Origin: Weeksellaceae bacterium
GTDB lineage: Bacteria > Bacteroidota > Bacteroidia > Flavobacteriales > Weeksellaceae
Length of the DNA: 64,000 nt
Direction: 5' to 3'
Assembly (NCBI GenBank): GCA_019459455.1
Contig: JAIBEX010000021.1
Span: 1-64,000 of the forward strand
Of the stretch, positions 56,515-61,917 are shown piece by piece (positions within the stretch are counted from its first letter, which is position 1; each line of letters begins with the position of its first letter). Below the pieces are notes generated by a model that saw only the letters and a program-made list of their open reading frames with translations, ran no database searches and was not told the DNA's origin. A program made the translations under genes and the position numbers.

Positions 56515-58842
56515 ATGGATTACTTGAAAGGATTGAATGAAGCACAGTATGAAGCCGTTACCACGCTGGAAGGGCCCCTGATGGTCCTCGCAGGCGCCGG
56601 TTCCGGTAAGACCCGTGTGCTCACCATGCGGATTGCCCATCTGATCACCAATCTGGTGGACCCCTTCCACATTCTCGCCCTCACCTTTACCAATAAGGCT
56701 GCGAAGGAAATGAAGGAAAGGATTGCAAAAGTGGTGGGGCAAAGCGAAGCAAGGTCGCTCTGGATGGGAACCTTTCACTCGGTTTTTGCCAGAATACTGC
56801 GCAGCGAGGCCCATTATCTGGGTTTCCCGGCCAACTTTACAATCTACGATTCCCAGGATTCCCTGAATGTAATCAAAAAAGTGCTGAAGGAACTCAACAT
56901 CGATGCTGACCTCTATAAACCGAAAAAAGTCCAGGCCAGGATTTCCAATTACAAAAACAACCTCATTACGGTAAAAGCATATTTTGGCAATCCGGAACTC
57001 ATAGAGAATGATGAACGTGCCAATATGAAGCATATGGGAATGATTTACCAGAAGTATGTGGATGCCTGCTACCGCAACGGTGCGATGGATTTTGATGATT
57101 TACTTCTAAGGACCAATGAACTGCTCACGCGGTTTCCCGAAGTCCTGGCAAAGTATCAGGACCGCTTCCGTTACATCCTGGTCGATGAGTATCAGGATAC
57201 AAACCACTCCCAGTATCTGATCGTAAAGGCGCTGGCGTCCAAGTTTGAGAACATTTGTGTGGTAGGCGACGATGCCCAGTCCATTTACTCCTTCCGGGGC
57301 GCGAACATCCATAACATCCTGAATTTTAAGAAAGACTATCCCGATGCGGTTACCGTTTCGCTTGAGCAGAACTACCGTTCGACCCAGAACATTGTGAATG
57401 CGGCCAACGTTGTGATTTCCAAGAACGTCCAGCAGTTCAAGAAAAATGTTTTCAGTGACAATGAAGAAGGGGATAAAATCAAGGTCTACCGCTCTTTGTC
57501 CGATGCTGATGAAGCCAACTTTGTAGCGTCCAACATCTGGGAGCTCCACAACTCGCAGCAGCGGAAATTTACGGATTTTGCCATTTTATACCGTACCAAT
57601 TCGCAGACAAGGGCTTTCGAAGATGCTTTACGACGCAAAAATATCCCGTACCGGGTTTTTGGCGGACTTTCCTTTTATCAGAGAAAAGAAGTAAAGGATC
57701 TCATCGCTTATCTGCGTTTGCTAATCAACGAGAACGATTCCGAGGCCTTAACCAGGATCATCAATTTTCCCGCGCGTGGGATCGGGGATACCACGCAGAA
57801 CAAACTCATTGTTTTTGCAGATGCACAGAATGTCTCCATTACCACGGTTCTGGATAATCTTGGCATGTATGCACCGCAGCTGGGCCTTAACAATGGTATC
57901 CTTACAAAACTGTCGGATTTCTGGGCCATGATTAAGGCGTTCCAGGTGATGCTGAAATCCGAAAATGCATACACTGTCGCAATGGAAGTCGCCAAACGCA
58001 CCGGGCTGATTAAATTCCTGAAAGACGACCAGACGCCGGAAGGTATTTCCCGTGTGGAGAACGTGCAGGAACTCATGAACTCCATGCAGGGATTCATTGA
58101 GGAGCAGCAGCAACTGGAGGATGGCGACCCTTCACTTTCCAGTTTCCTGGAGAATATCGCGCTTTCGGCAGATACCCAAAAGGACAAAAAGGACGATGGT
58201 GACCAGGTTTCATTAATGACGATTCACCTTTCCAAAGGTCTGGAATTCCCCGTCGTACATTTGGTAGGTTTGGAGGAGAACCTTTTCCCGAGTTTCATGA
58301 GTTCATCCACCCGTGAAGAGCTTGAAGAAGAGCGCCGACTGTTTTATGTAGCACTGACACGAGCAGAAAAGCAGGCTTTTTTCAGTTATGCGATCTCCAG
58401 GTTCCAGTGGGGGAAAATTACCGATGCCGAACCTTCCAGGTTCTTAAGTGAAATGGATGAAGCGCATCTGGAATTCATCAATCCGGCCATTGAAAGCCGT
58501 TTTGTTAACCATTCCGGGTTGAAATCAAATATTTTTGATGATGAAGCGGCAGCGCCGCGGTTCTTTAAAAAGAAGGAAGAGAAAAAAACAATTCAGCGCA
58601 ATGAAATGTTGCCTGTTCCCCAAAACCTGAAACCGGTGGCCACCGCAAAAATTACGAATCCAAGCGGGGTTTCTTCGGAAAATATTGAGGTGGGCGACCA
58701 GGTACGTCACGACCGTTTTGGCGTGGGAGAAGTGCTGTTTTTAGACGGGACTGATCCACAAAACATTAAAGCAAAAGTGAAATTCCAGCATGAAGGTGAA
58801 AAGAATCTGATTTTAAAGTTTGCGAAGCTGACGAAGATTTAG
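56515..58842 (+). CDS. UvrD/PcrA-type superfamily 1 DNA helicase
   Basis: A 775-residue 3'-5' helicase of the UvrD/PcrA group. Q-motif LNEAQYEAV is at the N-terminus, Walker A AGAGSGKT is at 26-33, and Walker B DEYQDTN lies near 223-229. GDDAQSIYSFRGA, the motif around LEQNYRST, and the C-terminal VSLMTIHLSKGLEFPVV and ALTRAE are also present. The tail has a Tudor-like KOW patch (GDQVRHDRFGVGEVLF) typical of PcrA/UvrD, used to contact RNA polymerase. It acts in excision repair and in removing RecA or stalled polymerase. Confidence 0.95.
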   Translation: MDYLKGLNEAQYEAVTTLEGPLMVLAGAGSGKTRVLTMRIAHLITNLVDPFHILALTFTNKAAKEMKERIAKVVGQSEARSLWMGTFHSVFARILRSEAHYLGFPANFTIYDSQDSLNVIKKVLKELNIDADLYKPKKVQARISNYKNNLITVKAYFGNPELIENDERANMKHMGMIYQKYVDACYRNGAMDFDDLLLRTNELLTRFPEVLAKYQDRFRYILVDEYQDTNHSQYLIVKALASKFENICVVGDDAQSIYSFRGANIHNILNFKKDYPDAVTVSLEQNYRSTQNIVNAANVVISKNVQQFKKNVFSDNEEGDKIKVYRSLSDADEANFVASNIWELHNSQQRKFTDFAILYRTNSQTRAFEDALRRKNIPYRVFGGLSFYQRKEVKDLIAYLRLLINENDSEALTRIINFPARGIGDTTQNKLIVFADAQNVSITTVLDNLGMYAPQLGLNNGILTKLSDFWAMIKAFQVMLKSENAYTVAMEVAKRTGLIKFLKDDQTPEGISRVENVQELMNSMQGFIEEQQQLEDGDPSLSSFLENIALSADTQKDKKDDGDQVSLMTIHLSKGLEFPVVHLVGLEENLFPSFMSSSTREELEEERRLFYVALTRAEKQAFFSYAISRFQWGKITDAEPSRFLSEMDEAHLEFINPAIESRFVNHSGLKSNIFDDEAAAPRFFKKKEEKKTIQRNEMLPVPQNLKPVATAKITNPSGVSSENIEVGDQVRHDRFGVGEVLFLDGTDPQNIKAKVKFQHEGEKNLILKFAKLTKI

Positions 58843-58911: not shown

Positions 58912-59017
58912 GTCATTGCGAAGATTGGAGCGCAGCGCAATAACGCAGCAATCTTTTGAGCTTATCATGGATCTATTTGGGGATTGCTTCCTCGTCGTAC
59001 CTCCTCGTCGCAATGAC
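58912..59017. repeat. Palindromic intergenic repeat element
   Basis: The 106-base element has matching ends, GTCATTGCG and CGCAATGAC, and an internal pair AGCAATC (58947-58953) and GATTGCT (58982-58988). The arms are GC-rich with the repeated word CTCGTCG. It can fold into one long hairpin with no open reading frame. This is the form of small dispersed palindromic repeats (MITE/REP-like) common in Flavobacteriia genomes. It ends 2 bases from the DUF3037 stop codon. Confidence 0.8.
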
Positions 59018-59019
59018 GG

Positions 59020-59403
59020 TTACTTCACCAACTCCTCAAACAACCTCTCAAACGTCCCATCCAAATCCTTTGTCTTTCCCGGGTGGGGACGTGAGGTCTG
59101 AATCACCGAACTCCGTACCGCCGTCAGCCAGCGGAACCGTTCCGGGATATCAAGCGCAGCGATTTCGCCACCTACTTTTTCACCTCTTGCGACATGTTTG
59201 AAGTTTTCCAGGTTCTGAAGGATGTCTTCAACATCCATTTCAGAATGCATGAGCTGAAATTTATACGGACAGAGATGAAATTCCACCCGGATGTATTTTT
59301 CCCTTTTCGAAAACATGACGAGGCCGATGTTGAAGAATTCTTCCCTCTCCACCTTTGGAACCAGCCTGATGACGGCGTATTCGTATATCTTAACCTCTTG
59401 CAT
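59020..59403 (-). CDS. DUF3037 domain-containing protein
   Basis: The 127-residue protein fits DUF3037, opening YEYAVIRLVPKVEREEFFNIGLVMF and continuing to the characteristic SRPHPGKTKDLDGTF near the C-terminus. It is soluble and has no known activity. Its ATG overlaps the end of the HipA-like kinase gene by 14 bases, implying translational coupling. This kinase-DUF3037 pairing recurs in other bacteria, so the two proteins probably work together; the function is unknown. Confidence 0.88.
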   Translation of the reverse strand: MQEVKIYEYAVIRLVPKVEREEFFNIGLVMFSKREKYIRVEFHLCPYKFQLMHSEMDVEDILQNLENFKHVARGEKVGGEIAALDIPERFRWLTAVRSSVIQTSRPHPGKTKDLDGTFERLFEELVK

Positions 59404-60169
59404 TTTTCGCTTCGTTTACAAAGTTATGGGAATTCTCAAGCCGGGTTTGCAGGAAATTGCAATAGACGTCCTTAATCTCTTCCGGCGAATCCTCGGTGTC
59501 TTTCCAGTCCAGCCATTCTAACGGGATGAGTTCTGCAATTTCCCGCAGAACGGTATCATTTAAAACGGTTTTGGCAAATACGTCCGCTTCATCAAGCATA
59601 GAGGCCTGACGAAGAAGAACGTGGTCTTTTACATAAGCAAAAGGGCTCAGGGCATGCTTCTCGAAATTCATCCAGGAATGATGGAAGTAGAAGGACGCGC
59701 CGTTATCGATGACCCAGAGTTCCTTATGCCACATCAGCAGGTTCGTATTTTTATGCGTACGGTCTATGTTTGTGATGAAGGCATCAAGCCAGACAATTTT
59801 GGAGGCCAGCAGCGGGTCAATTTTTACGGAAGAATCATAGGCAATGGCCCCGGACAGGAAATGCAGCGCCAGATTCAAACCTTCCGAAAACTTCAGCAGG
59901 TCCTGTATCTCTTCGTCGCCTTCGGTACGGCCGAAATCCACATCCAGGTTTGCAAACACCAGTTCCGGGATTTGCAAACCCAATACTTCTGCGATTTTTC
60001 CCCCAAGAAGTTCAGAAATAAGCATCTTCACCCCATGGCCGCCGCCCCTGAATTTCAGGACGTATTTAAAATCGTCATCCGCTTCAGCCAGTGCAGGCAG
60101 TGAACCTCCTTCCCGCAAAGGCAGGATGTACCGCATGACTGTAACCGTTCTTAAAGATAAATCCCGCAT
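59390..60169 (-). CDS. HipA-like kinase (solitary C-terminal-type domain)
   Basis: The 259-residue protein has a kinase fold of the HipA-like type: a lysine in YVLKF (K39) with a glycine-rich FRGGGHG after it. The catalytic loop NIDRTHKN (134-141, D136 and N141) and the metal-binding D155 in VIDNG follow. The N-terminal HipA domain of the classic HipBA toxin and the HipB regulator are both absent. It overlaps the DUF3037 gene by 14 bases. A promoter element ends 6 bases before the ATG. The substrate is unknown; phosphorylation of tRNA synthetases, as by HipA, is not implied. Confidence 0.85.
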   Translation of the reverse strand: MRDLSLRTVTVMRYILPLREGGSLPALAEADDDFKYVLKFRGGGHGVKMLISELLGGKIAEVLGLQIPELVFANLDVDFGRTEGDEEIQDLLKFSEGLNLALHFLSGAIAYDSSVKIDPLLASKIVWLDAFITNIDRTHKNTNLLMWHKELWVIDNGASFYFHHSWMNFEKHALSPFAYVKDHVLLRQASMLDEADVFAKTVLNDTVLREIAELIPLEWLDWKDTEDSPEEIKDVYCNFLQTRLENSHNFVNEAKNARG

Positions 60170-60175
60170 AGATTA

Positions 60176-60183
60176 CAAATTTA
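60176..60183 (-). promoter_or_regulatory. -7 element of the HipA-like/DUF3037 operon
   Basis: TAAATTTG on the minus strand fits TAnnTTTG with 6 bases between its G and the ATG. Confidence 0.55.
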
Positions 60184-60202: not shown

Positions 60203-60230
60203 AAAAAAGTTACCCAAAACCGGATAACTT
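60203..60230 (-). terminator. Terminator of the UbiB-family gene
   Basis: On the minus strand AAGTTA-CC and GG-TAACTT pair around a short loop and are followed by TTTTTT, 26 bases after the stop codon. Confidence 0.7.
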
Positions 60231-60255: not shown

Positions 60256-61917
60256 TCAGTCTTTATTCTTCCTGAAATGCTCATCCTTGAACATGATGTT
60301 ATAGACCAGGAATAATCCGAGTCCAATCGCGATCATAAAGAAGACAAAGGGCAGGATTCCATACCCCATGACGGAATAGCTGGACGGAATCCTCATCAGC
60401 AGCGCAGCACCGATAATCATGGCGGCTATAATCAGACCTGCAGTAATGCGGTTTGCTACCTTCTGAAATCCGTCGGTAAGCCGTTCCTCATCAATGGCAT
60501 TTATCTTTAACTCCAGTTCATTGTTCGCGAGTCGCTCTGTGATTTTGTTGAGGCGTCCCGGAAGATTTTCAACCAGTTTCTTGTTTTCCAGCAGAAATCC
60601 GTAGGCATTTTCGGGCTTCAGTTCCTTCTTCATCTTTTTGTTCACCATCTCGTCCATAAATTTGCGGATGGCCTTCTGAAGGTCATATTTGGGAGTGAGT
60701 ACCGCAATGATTTGGTCCAGATTCAGGAGTATTTTGCCTAAGATATTAAGTTCTACAGCCAGCTTGATGCCTTCGTCAGCTGCAATCCGGTTCATTTGGA
60801 GCAGGATTCGGCCGGTTTCCATGTCTTCAGCATTTGTACTGGTGCTGTCCATGACGAGGCGGTTGATGTTTTTTCTGAAATTGTCCACGTTGGCTTTCGC
60901 GGCATCGTAAACACTCATCTCCAGCAAAGCTTCTGTGATGGCATCGCCGTCTTTTTTACTCATGCCAACGAGCAGCATCATGATTTTTTCCTGAAGTTTG
61001 GGGCTGAATTTAGCGACCATGCCCAAATCCATCAGCGCTACCTGGTTATCCGACGTTAAGTGAATGTTTCCCGGGTGCGGGTCGGCATGTGCAAAGCCAT
61101 CTACAATGATTTGCTTCAGATAACCTTCCACCAGGTCATCGATGATGGGGTTGAAATCAATTTCGGTTTTCTTGATGTTTCCGAGTGAAGTGATTTTTTT
61201 GCCTTCAATGAAGTCCATAGTAAGCACTTTGGATGACGAATATTCTGAGACCGGCGATGGGATGACCAAATGTCTGTACGTCTTTAGGTTTTCCTTCAGG
61301 ATAATCAGGTTTTGAGCCTCTTTGTTGTAATCCAGTTCATTCAGCAGTATGAATCGCAGTTCCTCAATCACATCATCCAGGGCATATTTTTTTGCTGCTT
61401 TGGAATGCGTAACGGCCAGATCAGCCATTTGTTTCAGGGTATCCAGGTCCTCCAGGAAATTTTTACGGACGCCCGGCCGCTGTATCTTGACCGCCACCAC
61501 CCGTCCGGAGTGGAGTAACGCTTTGTGAACCTGGCCGATAGAGGCACTCGCAAGCGGAACCTGATCAAATTCTACAAAAGCTTTCTTTATACGTACTCCA
61601 ATTTCCTCTTCGAAGATCCTTTCCACCTCCTCGTACGAAATCGTCTCCACATCATCCTGCAGATTAGCCAAGGCATCGAGGTAATGGTCCGGCAAAAGGT
61701 CTGGCCTTGTGGACAGCAGCTGACCCAGTTTTACATAGGTCGGTCCCATCTGCTTTAAATCTTCAACAAGTTCTTCCGGTTTCTGGCTGAACTCCAAATC
61801 GGTTGTGGCTTCATCATTCAGAGCAGTATTGGCGGTGGATTTTACGACATCGCTGTTGTAATATTTTAAGATAAAGCTGAAAAATTTGGTGTATGTGCTG
61901 AGTTGTTCTAGAGCCAT
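60256..61917 (-). CDS. AarF/UbiB/ABC1-family atypical kinase
   Basis: The 553-residue membrane protein carries the family KxGQ motif (YVKLGQLLSTRPD, K63-Q66), the alanine-rich ASASIGQVH loop and the AVKIQRP lysine. The catalytic stretch HADPHPGN and metal site LMDLGM are also present. Two transmembrane helices close the C-terminus (about 495-545). UbiB-type ATPases support isoprenoid quinone synthesis, here presumably menaquinone, since Flavobacteriia lack ubiquinone. The gene is monocistronic and ends in a hairpin terminator. Confidence 0.92.
   Translation of the reverse strand: MALEQLSTYTKFFSFILKYYNSDVVKSTANTALNDEATTDLEFSQKPEELVEDLKQMGPTYVKLGQLLSTRPDLLPDHYLDALANLQDDVETISYEEVERIFEEEIGVRIKKAFVEFDQVPLASASIGQVHKALLHSGRVVAVKIQRPGVRKNFLEDLDTLKQMADLAVTHSKAAKKYALDDVIEELRFILLNELDYNKEAQNLIILKENLKTYRHLVIPSPVSEYSSSKVLTMDFIEGKKITSLGNIKKTEIDFNPIIDDLVEGYLKQIIVDGFAHADPHPGNIHLTSDNQVALMDLGMVAKFSPKLQEKIMMLLVGMSKKDGDAITEALLEMSVYDAAKANVDNFRKNINRLVMDSTSTNAEDMETGRILLQMNRIAADEGIKLAVELNILGKILLNLDQIIAVLTPKYDLQKAIRKFMDEMVNKKMKKELKPENAYGFLLENKKLVENLPGRLNKITERLANNELELKINAIDEERLTDGFQKVANRITAGLIIAAMIIGAALLMRIPSSYSVMGYGILPFVFFMIAIGLGLFLVYNIMFKDEHFRKNKD

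Follow-up and report, generated by a model that had tools for sequence, protein, structure and literature searches.

Pairs of a HipA-like kinase and a DUF3037 protein have been described in the context of defence against phages. According to PMC12548924, Retron-Sda1 contains such a pair, in which defence against phage Bas51 was lost when the HipA kinase was deleted, whereas deleting the DUF3037 gene proved toxic, the retron not being needed; a C-terminal region of this DUF3037 protein is described there as similar to a retron DNA-binding protein. The system DS-6 was renamed HipAD (PMC13092281, citing Brenes and Laub 2025), and that paper reports that defence needs a catalytic residue of the kinase, that AlphaFold3 predicts binding between kinase and partner, and that the C-terminal region of HipD is predicted to contact DNA. 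In the GenBank record of E. coli prophage PhiR5_1 the two proteins are labelled 'HipA toxin' and 'HipD antitoxin', and PADLOC includes the candidate system PDC-M66. The locus studied here belongs to the window, the whole stretch of 64,000 nt that was analysed from a Weeksellaceae bacterium. An earlier note had taken it for an uncharacterised module and for the window's best candidate for an undescribed system, a view that is ruled out by the matches to PDC-M66 and by the homologous systems tested as Retron-Sda1 and DS-6/HipAD. The kinase-DUF3037 kind is already published; new is a short, separate branch that is near-universal in one family, tightly coupled and apparently almost leaderless. In searches that covered titles and abstracts, no publication on a core, short or leaderless branch was found.

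The first gene of the pair (59390-60169, minus strand) encodes a HipA_2-family kinase of 259 aa, the second (59020-59403, minus strand) a short DUF3037 protein of 127 aa that lacks the C-terminal region of HipD, and the two genes share 14 nt (59390-59403), as the earlier note had read them. An ABC1/AarF kinase gene assigned by Pfam (60256-61917, minus strand) lies upstream, and a convergent gene downstream of DUF3037 (56515-58842, plus strand) is, judged by its sequence, a UvrD-like helicase. Because these are the flanking genes, no HipB-like gene adjoins the pair, and the claim that a HipB antitoxin is lacking holds.

As in HipAD, a HipA_2 kinase gene is followed by an overlapping DUF3037 gene without HipB, and the catalytic residues align. 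The kinase of the window shares 25% identity with HipA from the HipAD system along 221 aa (E 3e-11), and DUF3037 aligned with HipD by BLASTP in one segment (residues 9-37, E 4e-7), both matching Pfam PF11236. HipD, in contrast, has 275 aa, including a C-terminal region of about 145 aa that is lacking here; when HipD and two plasmid homologues were aligned with the short DUF3037, the latter stopped where their C-terminal region starts. The overlap also differs, with 4 nt in HipAD, and so does the setting, which is phage-borne for HipAD and core chromosomal for the Weeksellaceae pair. DUF1829, named for DS-6B in PMC13092281, did not appear in Pfam searches at E<=1 with HipD of PhiR5_1 and the two plasmid homologues, and the HipD extension is therefore termed merely a C-terminal region here. 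Compared with the accessory pair of Retron-Sda1, the HipA-like kinase and DUF3037 are shared, but the linkage to a retron RT and the DUF3037 C-terminal region are both absent from the window pair. The match of the kinase to PDC-M66A extends over positions 7-264 of 270 (5.9e-20), whereas DUF3037 covers only positions 1-129 of 281 of PDC-M66B (1.1e-9), these matches being judged by profile E value and coverage, outside the PADLOC thresholds and gene-order rules. Judged by sequence, the window pair is a sister branch of HipAD.

By analogy with these homologues, we consider it probable, with moderate confidence, that the pair is a toxin-antitoxin-like module in which a kinase toxin is held by DUF3037 and which was fixed as a core switch of growth control or defence. 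A promoter of its own would drive the pair, the mRNA having next to no leader, and DUF3037 would be translated directly behind the kinase from the overlapping start. DUF3037 would bind the kinase and keep it off, and a kinase set free by some trigger, having a HipA/CtkA/HipT-like fold and the catalytic residues, would phosphorylate a cellular protein as its target and thereby slow growth. The data on Retron-Sda1 and HipAD, the invariant catalytic residues, the pairing and overlap in all 211 loci with a readable pair and the fold matches of the kinase speak for this reading, as do the near-universal presence in the family, neighbours without PADLOC matches, the lack of a phage copy and a joint break of both genes in one genome, all of which are presented below. 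Among the roles that the earlier note had offered for DUF3037, that of an antitoxin is thus supported by analogy with the published homologue. Against a toxin-antitoxin function it may be held that the likeness to HipAD is distant, as the identity of the kinases illustrates, so that the function may differ.

The coupling of the two genes was assessed in 219 loci, the window's own included, of which 139 came from one set and 80 were the best of at least 586 relatives found by a scan of named genomes (at least 599 pattern matches), some genomes being represented twice. An intact colinear pair was present in 211 of the 219, corresponding to 175 distinct pairs; one of the eight dropped loci lay at a contig edge, and in the other seven, mostly long forms, one of the two window queries went unmatched. 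Kinase and DUF3037 genes overlapped in all 211 loci, by 11, 14, 20 or 23 nt. The overlap was 4 nt in two long plasmid pairs, as in HipAD, and also in a short pair on a Streptomyces plasmid that is counted apart from the 211, and 23 nt in two Bacteroidales records of the plasmid set. Given the overlapping start of DUF3037, both proteins would be made together and would be hard to separate. In classical toxin-antitoxin operons the antitoxin comes first, and the toxin-first order found here, with putatively coupled translation, is unlike this arrangement, which argues against the toxin-antitoxin reading. Pairwise dN values of kinase and DUF3037 were correlated at 0.82, compared with 0.68 and 0.67 for their respective correlations with UvrD, although the 210 pairs behind these values come from 21 genomes and are not independent. 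The median dN/dS was 0.034 for the kinase (219 pairs), 0.066 for DUF3037 (257 pairs) and 0.015 for UvrD (11 pairs); both genes of the pair are therefore constrained.

The kinase matched Pfam HipA_2 (PF20613) with E 1.4e-17 and 64.3 bits against a cut-off of 27, and no further HipA-type domain was found by Pfam at E<=1. As HipA_2 is the sole Pfam family above cut-off in a protein of 259 aa whose model starts with the kinase lobe, the N-terminal subdomain of HipA is missing, in agreement with the earlier note. Likewise, the lysine, the catalytic loop NIDRTHKN and the metal aspartate that it had read as retained are invariant in all 175 distinct pairs, window included (K39, D136 within NIDRTHKN, N141 and D155), and the same holds for S23. 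A search of the PDB with the kinase sequence gave nothing useful (two matches, E 0.68). AlphaFold2 models of both proteins were built from the window and 45 relatives, and that of the kinase reached a pLDDT of 84.1, with residues 21-23 below 50. HipA is phosphorylated in its glycine-rich loop, and by analogy the flexible loop R19-EGGS-P25, which contains S23, is likely to be the regulatory loop of the window kinase.

Compared with known structures, the kinase model was closest to CtkA (Z 14.3, 3.5 A, 209 aligned), followed by type II PI4-kinases (Z 13.7), HipT-Lp, the HipT of Legionella (Z 11.4, 3.4 A, 185 aligned), and Shewanella HipA (Z 11.1). The predicted kinase fold is common to the HipBA and HipBST systems and the window pair, which differs from them by the missing adjoining HipB gene, the missing HipA N-terminal domain and DUF3037 as partner. 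In Foldseek the top row was Fam20A (E 3.4e-4) and HipA appeared only at rank 25, which speaks against the toxin-antitoxin reading. A kinase acting on a small molecule or lipid instead of a protein would fit a model whose distance to type II PI4-kinases is similar to that to CtkA and smaller than that to HipA, and it would also fit a weak Pfam match to PI3_PI4_kinase (E 0.061, below cut-off). The relatives HipA, CtkA and HipT, however, are protein kinases and the sequence family is HipA_2, so that we regard such a substrate as very improbable.

The partner protein matched Pfam DUF3037 (PF11236) with E 4.9e-39 and is uniform in its branch, with a length of 126-130 aa in 174 of the 175 distinct pairs (142 aa in the remaining one) and ATG as start codon in 172 and GTG in three. 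Fourteen residues were invariant in these pairs (R13, P16, E19, R20, E22, F23, N25, G27, R89, S98, Q102, S104, H107 and G109); P16, E22, N25 and G27 were also kept throughout a seven-row alignment that included the Streptomyces protein and three long forms, while the others were not all kept. The invariant polar residues among them (R13, E19, R20, E22, N25, R89, S98, Q102, S104 and H107) would also suit an enzyme or a ligand sensor, a point against a plain antitoxin. The AlphaFold2 model of DUF3037, with a pLDDT of 91.1, gave no confident match in the PDB (best Foldseek E 0.4, best VIA Z 3.3), and the sequence search of the PDB was not useful either (one match, E 0.21). The small chain (7vkb_B) of a PDB entry described as a 'bacterial kinase complex', presumably HipS-Lp, reached Z 2.7 over 71 aligned residues at 5.0 A, a value tied with unrelated chains and not above noise. 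No confident fold match supported DUF3037 as a look-alike of HipS or HipB, an absent match proving neither novelty nor difference. The 'DUF3037' of PMC6711988 is a plant/animal ARM-repeat domain and probably a different family.

The start of the kinase gene is a further characteristic of the branch. The motif TAAATTTG at 60176-60183 (minus strand) fits the -7 box TAnnTTTG of the Bacteroidota sigma-A factor and ends 6 nt before the kinase ATG. In flavobacteria this box is placed at -12 to -5, 4-5 nt before the transcription start, according to PMC9723704 and PMC6847099, and the window leader would therefore measure about 1-2 nt. In the window and the best 80 of the at least 586 relatives, the box ended 4-8 nt before the ATG at 44 of 81 kinase starts and exactly 4 nt before it at 35, compared with a mean of 0.86 and a maximum of 4 in letter shuffles when boxes within 0-15 nt were counted. 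The arrangement was concentrated in Weeksellaceae, where the box ended 0-8 nt before the kinase ATG in 31 of 35 loci among these best 80 (dinucleotide shuffles: mean 0.27, largest 2); other recurrent ORFs of the Weeksellaceae loci were preceded by the box in 1 of 372 cases, or 3 of 372 when the start was allowed to lie at any ATG within the first 30 codons. Among the 38 Flavobacteriaceae loci of the same best 80 only nine had it, with 15 (or 10) of 281 control ORFs. Three of the four exceptions in Weeksellaceae are Epilithonimonas-type loci with the start called at TTG, which may be misassigned. An almost leaderless kinase mRNA, which the earlier note had thought probable, is thus well supported at the sequence level. 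Leaderless mRNAs account for 5.5% of the mapped mRNAs of F. psychrophilum (PMC9723704); a near-leaderless start that recurs is unusual and offers a concrete handle on the regulation of the pair. A hairpin with a T run resembling an intrinsic terminator (60207-60230, minus strand) lies between the AarF/ABC1 gene and the kinase and suggests that the pair is an operon of its own, weak evidence by itself with four terminator-like sites in the 1.6-kb stretch against a shuffled mean of 1.6. Promoters of the sigma-70 type were not above shuffles in number (2 found, mean 1.8).

The earlier note's claim of a recurrent linkage is confirmed by the distribution of the pair. The 2.59-Mb genome contains one match each to the kinase and DUF3037 families in a Pfam-family search, and both genes were found in four of four genomes of the genus. 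In the family sample of 296 genomes, DUF3037 and HipA_2 were each present in 266 and both in 265, one genome (G035) having a weak DUF3037 match alone and another (G092) the kinase alone. In the largest genus (g20), each of the 149 genomes listed was positive. Each positive genome of the family had one DUF3037 match, and four (G032, G082, G120 and G163) had two HipA_2 matches; the weak DUF3037 matches of G035 and G043 may represent the long form. The order sample of 146 genomes comprised 50 with DUF3037, 21 of them outside the family, and 51 with HipA_2, with the kinase alone in G333. In one genome (G309, contig C170) kinase and DUF3037 were both broken by stops, which suggests a joint decay of both genes, or sequencing errors.

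Among 296 Bacteroidota genomes of the phylum sample, DUF3037 was found in 65 and HipA_2 in 74. Of the 67 DUF3037 matches, 49 were short (E 3e-36 or better, open frames of 131-181 aa, one per genome), and all 49 genomes also had a HipA_2 match. The other 18 were weaker (E 6e-4 to 2e-25), with frames of 278-330 aa in 16 and of 193 and 131 aa in one each. DUF3037 frequently present without the kinase, which the earlier note had named among its refuting conditions, was thus not observed, in support of a two-gene module, but the wider families do separate, with HipA_2 lacking a DUF3037 match in 11 genomes and a long DUF3037 lacking HipA_2 in two. Two genomes (G363 and G667) carried both a short and a long DUF3037 match.

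It is unusual for toxin-antitoxin or defence systems to be present in nearly all genomes of a family, and this counts against the toxin-antitoxin reading. The kinase might instead serve in housekeeping signalling, DUF3037 being its adaptor, activator, substrate or ligand sensor, with no relation to toxin-antitoxin systems. The core distribution, the constraint on both genes, the invariant polar residues of DUF3037 and the overlapping genes with a common promoter, which fit a 1:1 complex, would all agree with this. We nevertheless hold it to be a doubtful alternative, given that the closest tested relative has the kinase as its effector and suffers toxicity when DUF3037 is lost. Equally tentative is the possibility that a HipAD-type toxin-antitoxin system was domesticated as a core switch of the Weeksellaceae with a leaderless mRNA, in which DUF3037, beyond acting as an inhibitor, would be a ligand-sensing or catalytic partner, as its invariant polar residues would allow, that frees the kinase on a cellular signal. 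If this were true, the domesticated pair would be a resident growth-control circuit, and the mobile defence form with its C-terminal region would have evolved from it or in parallel to it.

Regarding descent, the best 80 of the at least 586 named-genome relatives comprised 38 Flavobacteriaceae, 35 Weeksellaceae, two Dysgonomonadaceae, one Bacteroidaceae and four without a family label. In a tree of these, two Kaistella rows were the group of the window (97/92). Nested among Weeksellaceae were five rows from Bacteroidales, Petrimonas and Fermentimonas among them, which points to some transfer between families. A quick tree of 47 kinases placed the 37 with short partners on one side of a branch with support 84 and a single change, a grouping reached in none of 500 shuffles, the depth being unsure because of long branches. 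Also on this side is an ungrouped row, L118 from genome G494, in which a HipA_2 kinase is followed by a downstream frame of at least 413 aa without a DUF3037 match, possibly a third kind of HipA_2 partner. A UvrD gene within 10 kb was common to the window and 24 of the best 80 loci, usually about 6.7 kb off and not adjacent, and the AarF neighbour was shared with one of the 80 (Kaistella treverensis). The recurrent neighbours differ, Chryseobacterium and Flavobacterium each having their own set; ten that were scanned were mostly metabolic enzymes, for example glycine cleavage T-protein, fumarylacetoacetase and NAD(P)H-hydrate dehydratase, a single one lacked any Pfam hit, and none of the ten matched PADLOC at E 1e-5.

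The short form was found in none of 50,697 phage records. A query of the long type retrieved records from three phages and 20 plasmids, counting the record of the query itself, and the phage search is therefore able to detect this kind of pair. Scans of viral contigs with the kinase and DUF3037 alignments gave 230 and 61 pattern matches, respectively, and no relative. The window pair matched six of 72,556 plasmid records, four of which were inspected, those of Nonomuraea (an 11.9-Mb record) and Streptomyces nigrescens being left out. Parabacteroides and Bacteroides records carried the short pair amid metabolic genes, one Streptomyces plasmid carried a short pair, and a Photobacterium record had the long form next to integrases. 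Carriage of the short form by phages or plasmids was rejected on these counts. In the Parabacteroides distasonis record (L220), which is labelled 'plasmid', argH, pyrE and a glutamate synthase gene surround the pair, and it may be a misassembled piece of chromosome.

These data bear on the explanation that the pair is an ordinary abortive-infection system against phages, functionally equal to HipAD and merely well conserved in the family, whose mechanism would overlap with that of our preferred reading while its role differs. Both proteins match the PDC-M66 models, homologues defend, the nested Bacteroidales rows indicate some transfer, and presence in the rest of the order is partial, with the 21 positives outside the family. 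The occurrence of both genes in nearly all family genomes, the lack of PADLOC hits among ten scanned recurrent neighbours, the absence from the 50,697 phage records, in which the long type does occur, and the missing C-terminal region of HipD make this explanation unlikely in our view. Returning to the toxin-antitoxin-like module, we consider it most likely to act as an endogenous brake on growth or under stress, perhaps also as a resident defence, and not as a mobile defence cassette, because it is a near-universal chromosomal pair in Weeksellaceae without the HipD C-terminal region.

One Pfam pair thus comprises two lineages: phages and plasmids carry a long form with HipD, while nearly all members of one family have a short form. 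The short form looks like a reduced, resident relative of a phage-defence toxin-antitoxin system, which suggests that such a system can become a standard part of the chromosome of a bacterial family. Through this split, the question of whether core modules resembling toxin-antitoxin systems have an ordinary cellular function becomes genetically testable. It is also a warning against taking every PDC-M66 hit in Flavobacteriales for a mobile defence system.

Just past the DUF3037 stop, the inverted arms TCGCAATGAC lie at 58912-58921 (minus strand) and 59008-59017 (plus strand). A very strict search pattern for this palindrome gave no genome-wide matches; within the window the arms occur in two copies against 0.10 expected, and they form a REP-like palindrome in the space where the DUF3037 gene and the UvrD-like gene converge.
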